DNA of 64,000 nt from Sulfurisphaera ohwakuensis (GTDB lineage: Archaea; Thermoproteota; Thermoprotei_A; Sulfolobales; Sulfolobaceae), in assembly GCF_009729055.1 (NCBI RefSeq), contig NZ_CP045484.1, positions 744,001-808,000 on the forward strand. The letters run 5' to 3'. How positions within the stretch are numbered: the stretch's first letter is position 1; every line of letters begins with the position of its first letter. The position numbers and the translations under genes are program-made. The notes below the pieces were generated by a model. The model did not search any database. It saw only the letters and a program-made list of their open reading frames with translations, and had not been told where the DNA came from. This document shows positions 34,989 to 44,741 of the stretch, one piece after another.

Positions 34989-35563
34989 ATTTTAACGTAA
35001 TTACTGTTCATACTTTTGCCATGGCTAACATAAATGAAATTTAGTTTCAAATCCAAAACTTTTTGTACACTTTTTATCATTTCTTCTATATTTTCATAAA
35101 TTTGAGTATACGTTAGATAATTTCCTCTTCCTTGTAACATATCACCTACTATAACTGAATTTATTGGTTCTAAATAGAGAGAAATGGAATCATCAGTATG
35201 TCCAGGAGTGTAAAGTACCTTCACTCCCTTTACAATTTCCTCCTCACCTTTAAGAGTACAATCAACTTTAGTTGGTTTTAATCCTCTGGAGAAAAGTGAG
35301 AAGAGAGGAAAAACAATTTTTAGACCGAGAGAGTGTACAACAGGCTTTCTTATTAGCCCTTTCTCTAAGTACTCTTTCCCTTTCTCATGGATACAAAATT
35401 CTGCGTTAGTTAATCCTCTAATCTCACTAGCCCCACCAATATGATCTATGTGAGAATGTGTAAATATAACATATTTAACATCTTTTAAGTAATTTTGAAG
35501 AATTTTTCCACTACCCGGTGTACCAGTATCAACTAAAATATTTCCTTCATCAGTGTTTACCCG
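34985..35563 (-). pseudogene. Metallo-beta-lactamase gene, 3' part (cut by IS607)
   Basis: The minus frame reads VNTDEGNILVDTGTPGSG, then VIFTHSHIDHIGGASEI (the HxHxDH metal site), GVKVLYTPGHTDDSISLYL and IVGDML, and ends at 34985 with YVSHGKSMN. It has no start of its own. The missing N-terminus (MQVKEVQLRFVKAFLIE) lies at 37502-37565 beyond the IS607 element. Removing about 1,936 bp joins both parts in frame. The enzyme would be an MBL-fold hydrolase, perhaps linked to the sulfur genes, but is inactive as it stands. Confidence 0.85.
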
Positions 35564-36882
35564 TGGCGTAACTTCCCCTTACTTTTAATTATTTCTAATT
35601 CCACCACGGGCACCCCTCTTAAGGGATCATACACAGTCACCCTTAACTCATTGGGACTAGTCGAGGGAAACACCAATACCCTCCCATCCACCTTCTTTAC
35701 AAGGTTAAGAGGTGCAATGGAATCCCTTTCTAACAATATTTCCCCACCATCTAAGTACCTAGCAGTAACTTTGATTACTTTAATACCCCTACCCTCGTGA
35801 GCAGAGCCCGTCATCAGGTAGGGATTAAAAACCTTGATAACCTTCTCCACTACTTGCTTACTCTTCCCCAACCTCTCACCATCAAATGGGTTTATGGAAG
35901 AAGTATATGATTCTGAAACCTCCGTGACATCTATTGGCTGAGCCTTAAGCATTTCAATGAATTTAACAACACTCCACTGATGAATCCTATGCCTAAGCTT
36001 ACCATTCTTGTTACCCCCCATCCTCTCCTTAGCCTTTGATGAAAACTTACCAACCACAACCTTTACCTTTAAATCCCTAGCCAACTCAACAACCCTCTTA
36101 ACACTCTTCCTCAAGATATCAAGCTTCCTCTCCCTCTCCCTCAACCTCCTCAACTTTTTCTTAATTAGCTCGTCCTTAGTTGAGTACCCTTTAGTAACCT
36201 CTTCCCTCCTCAAGGAGTAGTTAATAACAATCCTCCCTAATCCAGTCTCATAACGCCTCAACTCCTTGAGCTTGAAACCCTCAAAAACCGCTAAAGTGAT
36301 ATTATTCTCGTTAACGTCAATAGAAACGTAATTACCTTCTTTCGTTTCAACCTCAACGTCCTTCTCAAATGTTAACCAGACTAGGACTCTCCTACCCACT
36401 AACCTTAACTTGAGTTCTTGAGAAACCCTCCAACCCTCATATAAATAGTGGATGAATTGTTTAGTGAACTTGAGGGGGATCTCAACCCAACCCTTGTGGG
36501 TTAAAACGCTAACAGACACTCTGTTAAACTTCCAATTAACCGTGTTAGGGATTGTGATCACGACCCTCTTATACTCTGGTTTCTCCTTTCTCGTTAGTCC
36601 TTTCTTTTTCCTCTCCCTAAAGCTCTTAACTATCCTACCGGCAACGATATAGGATCCTTCAATAACCCTTGAAGGTAAGAAGGGATACTTTTCCTTATAA
36701 TAACTGTAAAACCTCTCGTGCAACTTCTTCCTTGTAGTTGGTAAGTCCTCTGAGAGTATTATGTTAATCATTTCATTAACTATGTTTCTTTGGTATTCCT
36801 CAATCTCTTTAAGAACGTTGTATTTCCACTTGTTCAGATAGTCACTATCTAACCTAACTGTCCTTTTCAACGTCTTCAACAC
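35557..36882 (-). CDS. tnpB: TnpB-like protein of IS607 with altered RuvC site
   Basis: 441 residues. The RuvC-I aspartate is in YVSIDVNENNITLAVFE. The RuvC-II region reads KVVVGKFSSKAKERM, where the usual glutamate of TnpB (V-x-E-D/E) seems to be Gly, and the RuvC-III region reads LLERDSIAPLNLV. The four-cysteine zinc ribbon is absent. TnpB proteins are RNA-guided nucleases that aid retention of the element; here catalysis is doubtful unless an acidic residue is placed elsewhere. The stop codon TAA lies at 35557-35559, just outside the inverted repeat, so it comes from host DNA. Confidence 0.85.
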   Translation of the reverse strand: MLKTLKRTVRLDSDYLNKWKYNVLKEIEEYQRNIVNEMINIILSEDLPTTRKKLHERFYSYYKEKYPFLPSRVIEGSYIVAGRIVKSFRERKKKGLTRKEKPEYKRVVITIPNTVNWKFNRVSVSVLTHKGWVEIPLKFTKQFIHYLYEGWRVSQELKLRLVGRRVLVWLTFEKDVEVETKEGNYVSIDVNENNITLAVFEGFKLKELRRYETGLGRIVINYSLRREEVTKGYSTKDELIKKKLRRLRERERKLDILRKSVKRVVELARDLKVKVVVGKFSSKAKERMGGNKNGKLRHRIHQWSVVKFIEMLKAQPIDVTEVSESYTSSINPFDGERLGKSKQVVEKVIKVFNPYLMTGSAHEGRGIKVIKVTARYLDGGEILLERDSIAPLNLVKKVDGRVLVFPSTSPNELRVTVYDPLRGVPVVELEIIKSKGKLRHG

Positions 36883-37500
36883 ATTTTATCACCTTCTCGT
36901 ACTTATGGCCATAAATTCTTGAAGCAAAGGACTTAACGATTTCTACAAAGTCCTCTACTAGCTCTTGCATGTAATCCTTTGGTTCATCTTGGAAAGCCAC
37001 GATGACGTTTACTCCGTAAGCTTTGAATAACTCTACGAGGTATTCGAAGCCGAAACGTGTTAGTCTGTCCTTGTATGTTACTACTATTGCATCTATTTGC
37101 CTCCTCTTGGCTAATTCTATGAGTTTCTTTAATCCTCTTCTATCTTCTTTCAACCCAGAGTCAATGTCCTTAACTTCAGTTACACTCACTTCTCCGAAGG
37201 TTTTCTTAACCCATTCCTTCAACGTGTTTAGTTGTCTCTCCAAGTCGTCCTTTTGTGTGTTTGATGAGACTCTAGCGTAAATTGCTACTTGTTTAACTCT
37301 TTCTTTTCCACTTATTAATCTTTCTACTTCACTGTAAGGTATTCTCCACCTACCGTTAATTTCAATAGCCTTTATTTTCCCTTCCCTAATCCACTTAATA
37401 ACACCACTCCTACTCATCCCAAATATTTCAGCTACCTCGCTAGGTGTTAAATACCTCTCCACAGTAATTAGAAGTAATTAAAAATATTTAAAAGTTACGC
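35566..37500 (-). mobile_element. IS607-family element
   Basis: The element carries a serine recombinase (tnpA) and tnpB on the minus strand with a 29-base overlap. A 9-base inverted repeat marks the ends: GCGTAACTT at 35566-35574 and AAGTTACGC at 37492-37500. No target duplication is seen, as expected for a serine recombinase. It sits inside the metallo-beta-lactamase gene. The exact ends may shift by one base. Confidence 0.8.
36854..37462 (-). CDS. tnpA: IS607 serine recombinase (TnpA)
   Basis: 202 residues. Residues 1-50 are a MerR-like helix-turn-helix (YLTPSEVAEIFGMSRSGVIKWIREGKIKAIEINGRWRIP). Residues from 56 form the resolvase catalytic domain with AIYARVSSNTQKDDLERQL; the catalytic serine is 66 or 67. 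The following GLKEDRRGLKKLIELAKRRQIDAIVV and KDRLTRFGFE segments are the family's arginine site. It moves the element by serine recombination without target duplication. It overlaps tnpB by 29 bases. Confidence 0.92.
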   Translation of the reverse strand: MERYLTPSEVAEIFGMSRSGVIKWIREGKIKAIEINGRWRIPYSEVERLISGKERVKQVAIYARVSSNTQKDDLERQLNTLKEWVKKTFGEVSVTEVKDIDSGLKEDRRGLKKLIELAKRRQIDAIVVTYKDRLTRFGFEYLVELFKAYGVNVIVAFQDEPKDYMQELVEDFVEIVKSFASRIYGHKYEKVIKCVEDVEKDS

Positions 37501-40015: not shown

Positions 40016-40552
40016 ATGTCATCCCTTTTTGATAGTATAAATGCTTACGATGTAAAACCCTTCAAAAGAATGGGTGTAACCATAGACGAGGAAATTTATT
40101 ATGCTAAACTACTTATGAACTTTTTATCGCGTTTTAATCTTAATAAGGTTTTAGAAATAGGATGTGGTAACTGTTTAATCTCCATGTATGCTAGAAAAAT
40201 TGCAAAACAGATATATGCTATTGATGATTGGAAGGGAGAAGATATTAATAAATGGACAAAAGGAGTAAAAGATAATGTAACTGTTGTACAGAATTTATTT
40301 CCATTACCATTTAGGTCTTCTTTCTTTGACGGTGTCTATTCTTTTCTTTACTTTTATAATGTTACTAAGAAAGAAAGGAAAGATAAAATAGAAGAAATAC
40401 ACAGAGTGTTAAAAAGTGATGGAATCTTAGTCCTAGCTGATATTGATATAATGAGAAGTATTAGGAAGGATTTCTTAACCTATTTTGATGAGGTCGAGTT
40501 GTATATGGATCAAGGCATTTTCATTTCTATTATGAAGAAAAAATCCCCTTAA
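40016..40552 (+). CDS. Class I SAM-dependent methyltransferase
   Basis: 178 residues. Motif I is VLEIGCGNCLISMYA near residues 41-55, motif II is AIDDW, and a Methyltransf_11-like sheet follows (PLPFRSSFFDGVYSFLYFYNV, then RVLKSDGILVLADI). The substrate is not clear. It lies 213 bases upstream of the small peptide/radical SAM pair on the same strand. Involvement in maturing that peptide is possible but not shown, since a separate promoter may lie between. Confidence 0.8.
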   Translation: MSSLFDSINAYDVKPFKRMGVTIDEEIYYAKLLMNFLSRFNLNKVLEIGCGNCLISMYARKIAKQIYAIDDWKGEDINKWTKGVKDNVTVVQNLFPLPFRSSFFDGVYSFLYFYNVTKKERKDKIEEIHRVLKSDGILVLADIDIMRSIRKDFLTYFDEVELYMDQGIFISIMKKKSP

Positions 40553-40764
40553 AAACTTAATAAAGATTAGTCCATCTGTCCATAAATAATTTAAGGATAA
40601 AAAAATTACTTATTTTATTCTCTCATAATATAGTCTACGTAGAGAAAATAATTTTCCTAGAAATATATCTTTAATAGTTCCACTTATTCATTAACAGAGT
40701 TTCAAATAATACAAATTAGACTATTCTTTTCAATCTTAATAACTCAGTATATGAAATTTCGCAT

Positions 40765-40839
40765 ATGAAGGCCGTAAAAGTTGTAAAAATAGAAAGAAAA
40801 ATGGGTAGGTGTAACTACTCTCCTTCATGGGGCGAGTAA
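40765..40839 (+). CDS. 24-residue putative RiPP precursor peptide
   Basis: A very short gene starting at ATG 40765 and ending at TAA 40837-40839. The peptide begins [14 protein letters not shown] (a basic leader) and ends [10 protein letters not shown], a compact core with Cys, Asn, Tyr, Ser and Trp. Its stop is four bases before the ATG of a radical SAM/SPASM enzyme whose family often modifies peptides. A TATA-like CTTAATAAC at about 40735-40743 fits a leaderless start. Too short for standard gene calls. An alternative is a chance ORF or translation leader of the enzyme. Confidence 0.6.
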
Positions 40840-40843
40840 GAAG

Positions 40844-42061
40844 ATGGAATCTAAAACTAAGCTATCTAAATTCAATATTTTTCTTTATGATTATAATATT
40901 ATTTTTAATACATTAACCGGTTATGCGATTAAGGTAACTGATGAGCAAATGAGAAAACTTTCTAAAGGAGAGGTATCGGAGGAATTGAAGGATATAATTG
41001 AAGAAGGATTTTCTGAACAAGAGTTTGATATAGATAAGTTTATTGTAAATAAAAAGTATTTAGAGCCTACTCTTGTCTTAACATATGATTGTAATTTTGA
41101 TTGTGTTTATTGTTTTCAGAAGAAATTCAGGAATAAAAGTAGAGTAAAAGATGAAGTTGTTAGAGGATTTATTAACTATATAAAGAAGAATTCTAACGGA
41201 AGAAAAGTAAGAGTAACGTATTTTGGCGGTGAACCACTTTTAGAATTAAAAAGAATTGAAGAAATATCTAAGGAGCTAAAGGAAGAGGTAGATTATTCAT
41301 TTAGTGTAGTGACTAACGGATCATTACTAACCCCCTATGTTCTTGATAAATTACTCTCTTTAGGCTTATCTCATGTCCAAATTACGCTTGATGGTCCTAA
41401 GGAAGTTCATGATAAAAGAAGATTTTTCGTTAATGGTAGGGGATCCTTTGATGTTATATTAGAAAACTTAAAATATGCACAGGATAAAACTAAAGTAGTT
41501 TTGAGGATAAACATAGATATAAATAACTTAGATGAAATAGAAAAACTTCTAGAAATATTAAGAGAAGAAGGAATAACAAAGGTAAGAATTGATCCTCATT
41601 TAGTACATGAAAATACTTTTAGGCATGAGTATTGGCATAATACATTATCAAAAGAAAATGAAGGAAAAGTGTTAGTTAAATTCTGGGAAACTGCAAGAGA
41701 ATTAGGCTTTGAAATTCCGCAAGAAGTATTTAGATTAGGTATTTGTGTTGCACATATTGATGAAGATATAGTTGTCGATCCTTTAGGGAATATATATCCT
41801 TGTTGGGCATTTACTGGAAATCCACTTTATATTAAAGGTAAATTAAAAGAAGATGGAAATGTAGAATGGATAAATAACAAATTACTTGGGATAAAAGCAA
41901 GATATATTTGGAAAGGAAAATGTGATGATTGTCCCTATTTACCTATGTGTGTGGGAGGCTGTAGATTTTTTGCAGTCCTTGATAAAAAGGACTTTAATAA
42001 TATTGATTGTAAGAAAACTAATTATGAGGAAATTATAAAATTGATAAAATATTTTATTTAA
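40844..42061 (+). CDS. Radical SAM/SPASM peptide-modifying enzyme (candidate RiPP maturase)
   Basis: 405 residues. The N-terminal ~70 residues ([23 protein letters not shown]) resemble the recognition part of peptide maturases, not of MoaA. The AdoMet 4Fe-4S motif is CNFDCVYC (Cys83, 87, 90). The C-terminal SPASM region has a full set of cysteines (301, 320, 360, 363, 369, 373, 389; [16 protein letters not shown]) for extra 4Fe-4S clusters. Such enzymes form thioether or C-C crosslinks in small peptides. The 24-residue peptide gene is four bases upstream, making one transcript. Anaerobic sulfatase-type maturation is the alternative, but no sulfatase is nearby. Confidence 0.85.
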
Positions 42062-42842: not shown

Positions 42843-43793
42843 TCACTCGCTAGCATCAAATGGTTTATTATAATACAGCACAGCCCAAGTAATAACAGCT
42901 AATTTCCTTGCACAGGCAATAATCAACTTCTTACCCTTCAACTTTCCCTTATGCTCTTCATAAAAACGCTTGATAACAGGATTAACCCTAATAGCAGTTA
43001 AAGCTGCAAGATAGAAAGCTCTCCTCAAAACAGCATCACCCCTCTTAGAAATACCCTTAGAAACAACACTCTTACCACTAGACTCAATAACTGGGTCAAG
43101 ACCGCAATAAGCAACAAACCTCTTCTTATCACTAAAGCGCCTAATATCACCAACCCTAGCCAAAATTATACAACCCAAGGTTTTACCAATACCAGGAATG
43201 GTGAAAATCAAACTATCCTTGGGAACAAGATCCTCAAGTTTCTCCTCAATCTCCCTCTTCCTAACCTCAAGTCTCTCCAACTCCTCCAAAAGAAACCTAA
43301 CCTCAGCCAAGACAATACTATCCCCACCCCTCAAAACCTCCTCTAAGTTCTTCTTGGACAAACTATCCTTATAGCCCAAAAGTATCAAATCCCTCCTCAA
43401 CCTATTCTTAACCCTAGCAATACTCCTAGTAACAAAATCCCATTGGCTAGTTAACTCCCTAGCATCACTTGTTGTAAACTCACTACCCATACTTACAACT
43501 AGTTCAGCAAGCTTTTTAGCATCATTCTTATCACTCTTCTTACCCCTAAAATCCTTGAACTTCTTGAGTATGAAGGGATTAATAATCCTAACGTCATACT
43601 CTCCCATCAAGTACTTTGCTAGGTTAATGTGGTAAATTCCAGTACTTTCAATACCCACTTTACAACCCTTAGGCAAGATCTTAATTATCTCCTCATAACC
43701 TTGCCTATCATTAGGAAACTCGTAGTATTTGCCTTGGAAATATACTACTAATTTATCTTTTGATACGTCTATTCCTGCGACTGGGGCCTCCAT
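42843..43793 (-). CDS. IS110-family DEDD transposase
   Basis: 316 residues. The RuvC-like part has Asp9 (AGIDVSKDKLVVYF), Glu49 (GIESTGIYHINLAKYL) and Asp88/Asp91 (KKSDKNDAKKLAELV), the DEDD set. The C-terminal Transposase_20 part (TIPGIGKTLGCIILARVGDIRRF, then AYCGLDPVIESSGKSVVSKG) carries the candidate serine nucleophile in SSGKS. It looks intact, so the element may be mobile. These enzymes use a bridge RNA from their own noncoding end to choose donor and target. Confidence 0.93.
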   Translation of the reverse strand: MEAPVAGIDVSKDKLVVYFQGKYYEFPNDRQGYEEIIKILPKGCKVGIESTGIYHINLAKYLMGEYDVRIINPFILKKFKDFRGKKSDKNDAKKLAELVVSMGSEFTTSDARELTSQWDFVTRSIARVKNRLRRDLILLGYKDSLSKKNLEEVLRGGDSIVLAEVRFLLEELERLEVRKREIEEKLEDLVPKDSLIFTIPGIGKTLGCIILARVGDIRRFSDKKRFVAYCGLDPVIESSGKSVVSKGISKRGDAVLRRAFYLAALTAIRVNPVIKRFYEEHKGKLKGKKLIIACARKLAVITWAVLYYNKPFDASE

Positions 43794-44220: not shown

Positions 44221-44741
44221 TTAGTCTCTTTCTGGCCACTTTTACGTGTTAACTGGTCTCAATGCGACCACTTTTTATACAGTTAAAAAGTATAGTAAAA
44301 TCGCTAAATTATTTTTATGATTTTTTAGAAACATTTAAGATAAATAATCGTAGTAACTAAACAATTTCATTGGCAAGGAGTAGAGGGAGGCACTACATAC
44401 TAACGTCTCTAACAAACCTGAGTTTGAAAAACATGGAAGATTCAAACTTTCATTGTGATTTATATCTACCTTATTAGAGTAAAACTTTGACTATTAAATT
44501 CACACTAAGTTAGTACGAACAACGAGTAACAACGCACTAATAAGAAGGTCATAATTTAAACAATGACGAATAGTTTTACCATATTGTATTATTTGTGTAC
44601 TGAATATTAGGTAAAATTACAATTTACAATAAACTCATAATAAATAATTTAGGGTTTAACTAATTCTATTAAGTGTCCCTACTTTGTAAAATAATATTAT
44701 TTAGATGGAAACAATCAAATCCTCCGATTCAATTTTTCGTA
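44221..44741. other. Intergenic, AT-rich
   Basis: About 520 bases; no ORF, RNA or clear repeat was recognised. It holds the upstream region of the ATPase pseudogene. Confidence 0.45.

Follow-up and report, generated by a model that had tools for sequence, protein, structure and literature searches.

CteB is the thioether maturase of the SCIFF peptide, which contains six cysteines and is longer than the peptide described here. The PQQ pathway combines a short peptide (PqqA), whose core has a Glu-X3-Tyr arrangement, with a radical SAM/SPASM enzyme (PqqE) and an MBL-fold protein (PqqB). CteB (PDB 5wgg/5why) has been described as a sactisynthase with an open site on its auxiliary cluster that binds the substrate cysteine, and RumMC2 shows a matching 3+4 ligand pattern (PMC8172795). 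PapB forms Cys-Asp or Cys-Glu thioethers and was shown to tolerate between 0 and 6 residues separating Cys from Asp (PMC9413430). A 2025 genome survey reported predicted radical-SAM RiPP clusters of the ranthipeptide/sactipeptide type in archaea, including Thermoproteota, at the cluster level, and stated that few products of archaeal RiPP clusters have been identified (PMC12144867). The searched text of this survey makes no mention of Sulfolobaceae or of a C.YSPSWG core, and a literature search on radical SAM RiPPs of Sulfolobus or Sulfolobales found no described RiPP, product or such peptide.

Here we describe a gene pair from Sulfurisphaera ohwakuensis, located in a stretch of 64,000 nucleotides (NZ_CP045484.1, positions 744,001 to 808,000), which was analysed as a whole and is referred to below as the window. 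The pair likely represents (probability of about 0.75) a minimal one-precursor, one-maturase RiPP system of the Sulfolobaceae, with a docking leader and a cross-linked core. Systems of this kind, with a recognition element-radical SAM-SPASM maturase and an adjacent precursor, are already known; for the peptide and its product no description was found. The features of the locus, in window coordinates, are as follows.

40735..40744, + strand: putative TATA-like element CTTAATAACT, about 26 bases 5' of the peptide ATG, seen in the upstream DNA of clade A loci
40765..40839, + strand: precursor peptide gene, 24 codons, from ORF reading, conservation upstream of 15/15 intact orthologues and third-position-biased variation
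40777..40806, + strand: proposed leader segment, peptide residues 5-14, from the conserved pattern in 15 genomes, a strand in the fusion model and similar N-termini before some distant archaeal homologues
40807..40836, + strand: proposed core, peptide residues 15-24, with R, C, Y, S, P, S, W and G invariant, N or G at position 17 and E, Q or D as last residue
40844..42061, + strand: radical SAM/SPASM peptide maturase gene, 405 aa, as strongly indicated by motifs, profile matches, predicted structure and CteB as best PDB match
40844..41050, + strand: predicted N-terminal RiPP recognition element, enzyme residues 1-69, from the predicted structure and the bbb-aaa definition (PMC12710340)
41090..41113, + strand: CX3CX2C motif CNFDCVYC, enzyme residues 83-90, binding the radical SAM cluster; from the sequence, invariant in orthologues
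41744..42010, + strand: SPASM region with cysteines C301, C320, C360, C363, C369, C373 and C389, invariant in 15 orthologues

Results

A conserved short gene precedes the enzyme gene

The 24-codon gene that the initial annotation had placed four bases before a radical SAM gene proved correct in coordinates and sequence: a four-base gap separates the stop codon of the peptide from the enzyme ATG at 40844. Among 31 Sulfolobaceae genomes, including that of the window (G000), 15 genomes from six genera carry an intact full-length orthologue of the enzyme, the other 14 intact orthologues being 58-93% identical to that of the window; outside these 15, one enzyme gene is cut by a contig end (G021) and two genomes retain remnants only (G015 and G020). 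A short ORF of 23-28 codons lies directly 5' of the enzyme gene at all 15 intact loci, and the encoded peptides follow the consensus K.[VIL][VIL].I[EQ]R[KR].GRC[NG]YSPSWG[EQD]-stop, in which the first K is replaced by R in one genome. Each of the 15 peptides contains a single cysteine, followed by a proline at C+4 and by the acidic or amide residue at the spacing C-X7-[EQD]. A degenerate DNA pattern for RC.YSPSWG matched 15 of 229 Thermoproteia genomes, once each and always beside the enzyme, and these are exactly the 15 genomes with an intact enzyme; the reversed control pattern yielded no match in the 229 genomes.

Over 20 aligned codons from the 15 genomes, the third position varies in 19, compared with eight for the first and six for the second, which argues for selection on the peptide sequence, and none of 100,000 column permutations equalled this third-position bias. 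Read in all six frames, the aligned stretch is open throughout the 15 genomes in the peptide frame alone. Moreover, the second serine of SPS is kept through swaps between TCN and AGY codons, each of which needs two base changes. The short ORF encodes a protein and is subject to strong purifying selection. The presence of the same core at the matching place before the related enzyme in 15/15 intact loci supports the earlier proposal of a small-peptide modification pair in Sulfolobales; no intact Sulfolobaceae locus lacked the conserved short ORF, and third-position changes broke the peptide frame in none of the 15 genomes.

The enzyme is most similar to peptide maturases

A Pfam search of the enzyme returned essentially the radical SAM core, and the top NCBIfam models were all peptide maturases. 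The two best scores, each covering nearly the whole enzyme, belonged to CefB (NF038107; 245 bits, cut-off 600) and the geopeptide maturase (TIGR04280; 238.5 bits, cut-off 400), followed by TIGR04463 (171 bits, cut-off 525), the PapB ranthipeptide maturase (NF047865; 156.6 bits, cut-off 340) and the SCIFF maturase/CteB model (TIGR03974; 106 bits, cut-off 425). Membership in the CefB, geopeptide, PapB and SCIFF families was rejected, as all of their cut-offs were missed, and the earlier hint that the enzyme might belong to a catalogued maturase family was not borne out by any NCBIfam maturase model. The motif CNFDCVYC and the seven SPASM cysteines, which the initial annotation had pointed out, are present and invariant in the 15 Sulfolobaceae orthologues; across 53 homologues, CX3CX2C and most of the SPASM cysteines are invariant.

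An AlphaFold2 model of the enzyme, based on the alignment of 53 homologues, reached a pLDDT of 93.8 and a pTM of 0.91. Its N-terminus is predicted to consist of three strands (residues 11-14, 19-22 and 28-30) followed by three helices (33-40, 46-55 and 63-68), which is the bbb-aaa order of the strict RiPP recognition element definition (PMC12710340) and agrees with the peptide-recognition region previously suspected there. CteB was the top match by profile (positions 12-409 of the profile, E 4e-53), by single sequence and by fold (Foldseek); fold matches also included SuiB and ChlB, as well as a weak match to PqqE (6c8v, TM 0.51). There is strong indication that the enzyme matures peptides and is built from a recognition element, a radical SAM barrel and the SPASM domain. 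The locus displays the general hallmarks of radical SAM/SPASM RiPP systems, namely an adjacent conserved short precursor, CX3CX2C plus SPASM cysteines and a predicted bbb-aaa element, and the enzyme very probably acts on the adjacent 24-mer peptide.

Described maturases share some features with this system and differ in others. Like CteB, the enzyme is predicted to have an N-terminal recognition element followed by the radical SAM barrel and SPASM domain, the profile alignment is nearly full length, and C301, C320, C360, C363, C369 and C373 align with CteB cysteines; however, the two enzymes share only about 21% identity, and, unlike the SCIFF precursor, the window peptide has one cysteine plus an invariant tyrosine and tryptophan. 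The PapB family likewise encodes a radical SAM/SPASM maturase beside its precursor, but PapA contains six CX3D motifs (PMC9413430), whereas the precursors of the window type contain neither CX3D nor CX3E. CefB, as its name implies, targets a cysteine at every fifth residue, in contrast to the single cysteine in all 15 peptides.

The nature of the putative cross-link

The change made to the peptide is likely an internal cross-link, corresponding to -2 Da. By analogy, three SPASM cysteines would be ligands of auxiliary cluster I and the other four of cluster II; with the same 3+4 pattern in RumMC2, and the open cluster site of CteB filled by the substrate cysteine, a thioether to the single invariant cysteine would be the most likely product. 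A thioether of the ranthipeptide/sactipeptide type is compatible with the one invariant cysteine and with the open site predicted for auxiliary cluster I. Participation of the cysteine is slightly favoured. Several features argue against it: the core has one cysteine where known ranthipeptide and SCIFF precursors have several, the seven residues between the cysteine and the terminal E/Q/D exceed the range of 0 to 6 at which PapB works, and the invariant tyrosine and tryptophan would be equally suited to a C-C or C-O cross-link.

A less likely variant of the same RiPP system would have a C-C or C-O cross-link or ring formed through Tyr18 and/or Trp22, of the cyclophane or streptide type, with the cysteine used otherwise, e.g., for metal binding. 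Both residues are as invariant as the cysteine, and enzymes of this type, such as SuiB and ChlB among the fold matches, also have the radical SAM/SPASM architecture. Nevertheless, the thioether enzyme CteB leads by sequence, profile and fold, the thioether enzyme PapB scores 157 bits against 105 for the cyclophane maturase DynA and 78 for YhhB, and the short ORFs beside distant homologues bear cysteines.

Proposed leader docking and distant homologues

The earlier division of the peptide into a basic leader and a compact core appears reasonable. The peptide and enzyme of G019 were modelled as an artificial readthrough fusion, with the TAA read as Gly. This model places a strand at V6-K8 of the leader (mean pLDDT 71 over residues 1-10) and leaves residues 13-27 unordered (pLDDT <50), which fits a leader strand that would add to the recognition element.

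Short ORFs that contain cysteine are also frequent immediately 5' of distant homologues of the enzyme, in other Thermoproteota and in bacteria. Their cores look different and usually contain several cysteines, the C.YSPSWG core having been found in Sulfolobaceae only. Leader-like N-termini of nominal significance occur before two of six distant homologues (KKIIILEKAS in L158, p 0.011; VEIIPLREG in L156, p 0.017), and the N-termini of the other four show no significant likeness to the Sulfolobaceae leader; this low proportion is a point against the preferred reading.

It is very unlikely that the peptide serves, unmodified, as a small subunit or regulator of the enzyme and that the true substrate lies elsewhere. 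Both leader and core are conserved, and a leader docked on the N-terminal domain would look alike in this case, but the architecture is that of a RiPP maturase, and a C-terminus with invariant Cys, Tyr and Trp suits a modified core.

Several further short ORFs were seen beside distant homologues. Cys-rich ORFs lie directly 5' of the enzyme genes in L155, L156, L157 and L158 (other Thermoproteota), and in L156 the short ORF VEIIPLREGSCTFDDCGVCDCFQSICNYCAPPKEPSTW stops four bases short of the enzyme gene. Conserved short ORFs ending in QCC[AS]K....AGCHD (RGCHD in one variant) were seen in Bacteroidales, Ignavibacteria and Spirochaetes (L089, L096, L101, L102, L107, L109, L111, L112 and L114); a related radical SAM gene follows at a distance of about 50-135 bases, and an ArsM-like methyltransferase precedes these ORFs where the sequence was read. 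Two Omnitrophota ORFs (L069:3818-3913 and L070:3566-3670) have the cores GCCFPTG and SCCWPPG, whose cysteines, aromatic residue, proline and glycine are reminiscent of C.YSPSWG; the accompanying maturase is about 31% identical to that of the window.

Expression layout

Two layouts were found. In clade A (the window, G003, G001, G019, G044, G005 and G006), a TATA-like element about 26-30 bases 5' of the peptide ATG suggests a leaderless transcript starting at the peptide, and leaderless messages are the usual type in Saccharolobus (PMC11698992). In most genomes of clade B (genus g10 and a trio of g5 genomes), a GGTGA-like motif, which may serve in ribosome binding, precedes the enzyme start and overlaps the stop codon of the peptide. 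A further motif, TNGACT.TT, was noticed about 45 bases before the peptide ATG (40715-40730 in the window; likewise in L053, L054, L055 and L057), upstream of the TATA-like element at clade A loci of differing genomic context, and is a possible activator site. Peptide and enzyme share one frame in nine genomes (L054, L057, L059, L060, L061, L063, L064, L065 and L066), with the peptide stop, mostly TGA, as the sole separator; in the window genome the two are out of frame with each other. General readthrough into a peptide-enzyme fusion was rejected, as the shared frame is found in these nine genomes and not in that of the window.

The position of the short ORF directly before the enzyme start, and the overlap of its stop with the GGTGA motif in clade B, are what would be expected if the ORF were an upstream regulatory element or attenuator of the enzyme gene instead of encoding a substrate. 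This explanation is extremely unlikely, given that about 20 residues, including the C-terminus, are under selection with third positions free, that the enzyme has a predicted peptide-recognition domain and that its closest relatives are peptide maturases.

Peptide and enzyme are lost together

In G015, a single deletion fuses the GRC of the peptide to about residue 293 of the enzyme, so that the core of the peptide was lost along with most of the enzyme. In G020, a 46-residue enzyme remnant alone is left, beside an IS607-type element (typed from its neighbouring ORFs). The close relative G002 matches the window at 96% DNA identity as far as 40751, which lies 14 bases 5' of the peptide ATG; the match begins again at 44469, and the pair is absent. 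Always paired with the enzyme, the peptide is also lost together with it.

G002 retains the methyltransferase and WrbA-like genes despite missing the pair, which implies that neither belongs to the system; both are also absent nearby in most carriers and were rejected as parts of it. Thus, the methyltransferase (40016-40552) that had been noted upstream exists as a gene but is no part of the system. A broken, two-piece relative of this methyltransferase (51-56% identity) occurs in G045 (L064:2504-3076), about 6 kb from the peptide locus.

Transposase genes flank the region in the window on both sides: an IS607-like element (TnpB plus resolvase) at 35557-37462 and an IS110-like element at 42843-43793. 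Searches of viral contigs and plasmids for the locus gave no match, and spread by these routes was rejected on this ground. The patchy presence of the system, its decay in G015 and G020 and the apparent transfers show that it is dispensable.

An MBL-fold hydrolase is a candidate partner

An MBL-fold hydrolase gene is adjacent in nine of the 15 loci, in three arrangements: divergent behind a U32 peptidase gene (five g10 genomes), divergent (G044) and overlapping downstream (the g5 trio G024, G045 and G016). It is present in all 15 carriers, about 760 kb from the locus in the window's genome, and also in eight genomes that lack an intact full-length locus. The MBL tree places the g5 trio within g10 (support 90/90 and 92/87), apart from the other g5 members, and in the enzyme tree the trio joins g10 (86/81). 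Since both trees place the trio with g10, the simplest reading would be that enzyme, peptide and MBL genes were transferred together. The MBL gene clearly also exists independently of the locus, and usually lies beside the U32 peptidase gene. Extra linkage to the locus was seen for the MBL gene only; the U32 peptidase gene, the wHTH-like gene and the AhbC/AhbD-like radical SAM pair of g10 were rejected as dedicated partners, since the U32 peptidase, wHTH-like and AhbD-like genes, each profiled separately, are widespread in genomes without the locus. The MBL-fold hydrolase is therefore treated here as a candidate partner.

Several Sulfolobaceae have a gene row encoding a U32 peptidase, an MBL-fold protein and AhbD-like and AhbC-like radical SAM proteins (L060:5407-9386, - strand, and equivalents), and the U32-MBL pair is conserved in most of them. 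A Sulfolobaceae family of about 180 aa (MCDYRIF..., with CX2C and further cysteines) adjoins the locus in g4 and g10 (L060:10821-11369, + strand; L057:10826-11332, oriented). Its g10 member has no Pfam match and a paralogue has a weak winged-helix match; the family is a possible regulator.

The resemblance to PQQ lies in the very short conserved precursor, the radical SAM/SPASM enzyme and the MBL-fold neighbour in nine of 15 genomes. It is doubtful, however, that the locus belongs to a redox cofactor pathway like those of PQQ or mycofactocin, in which partners, among them the MBL-fold protein, would cleave and oxidise the cross-linked 24-mer to give a small molecule for use by other enzymes. 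The near-invariant core over six genera would be expected of such a pathway, as would an MBL-fold gene that is found in every carrier and that in the g5 trio overlaps the enzyme gene and nests in g10 as the enzyme does. Against it stand the eight genomes with the MBL gene but no intact locus, its usual pairing with the U32 peptidase gene, its remoteness in the window's genome and the lack of any cofactor-dependent dehydrogenase linked to the locus. In addition, unlike in PQQ biosynthesis, the recognition element is fused to the enzyme, the core differs from that of PqqA, lacking its Glu-X3-Tyr arrangement, and no PqqC or PqqD partner was recognised among the gene clusters shared within 10 kb. 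A speculative and rather improbable form of this idea is a Sulfolobaceae-specific peptide-derived cofactor or metal ligand of these aerobic thermoacidophiles, with C.YSPSWG cross-linked by its own enzyme and finished by the MBL-fold protein, in parallel to PQQ but with an independent origin in a Cys/Tyr/Trp core.

No protease, exporter or immunity gene was found recurrently linked within 10 kb of the 15 loci; the lack of a protease and an exporter there counts against the RiPP reading. A near-invariant core across six genera, together with the missing exporter and immunity genes, disfavours a diversifying antimicrobial. An antimicrobial, bacteriocin-like RiPP, as with some sactipeptides, would be in keeping with the patchy distribution, the repeated loss and the tree-suggested transfer between genera, but is quite unlikely with a core that does not diversify. 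More probably than an antibiotic, the product is a cofactor, metal ligand or signal of conserved function.

Discussion

In the preferred reading of the locus as a one-precursor, one-maturase RiPP system, a single promoter would drive both genes, and in several genomes the transcript would be leaderless, beginning with the peptide ATG. The basic leader (VV.IER..G) would dock as an added beta strand on the recognition element and thread the core RC.YSPSWG. into the radical SAM barrel, where the 5'-deoxyadenosyl radical would take a hydrogen from a core residue. The sole cysteine, bound to the open site of auxiliary cluster I, might then close a thioether ring (-2 Da) within C16-E24, and an unlinked protease would cut off the leader.

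The locus is about minimal for such a system, offers a nearly invariant 11-residue target and is presumably heat-stable, and the Sulfolobaceae include genetically tractable hosts. That the core hardly varies among six genera suggests a conserved function rather than an arms race. The carriers are acid-loving hot-spring archaea, and the peptide could give rise to a small molecule new to archaea.
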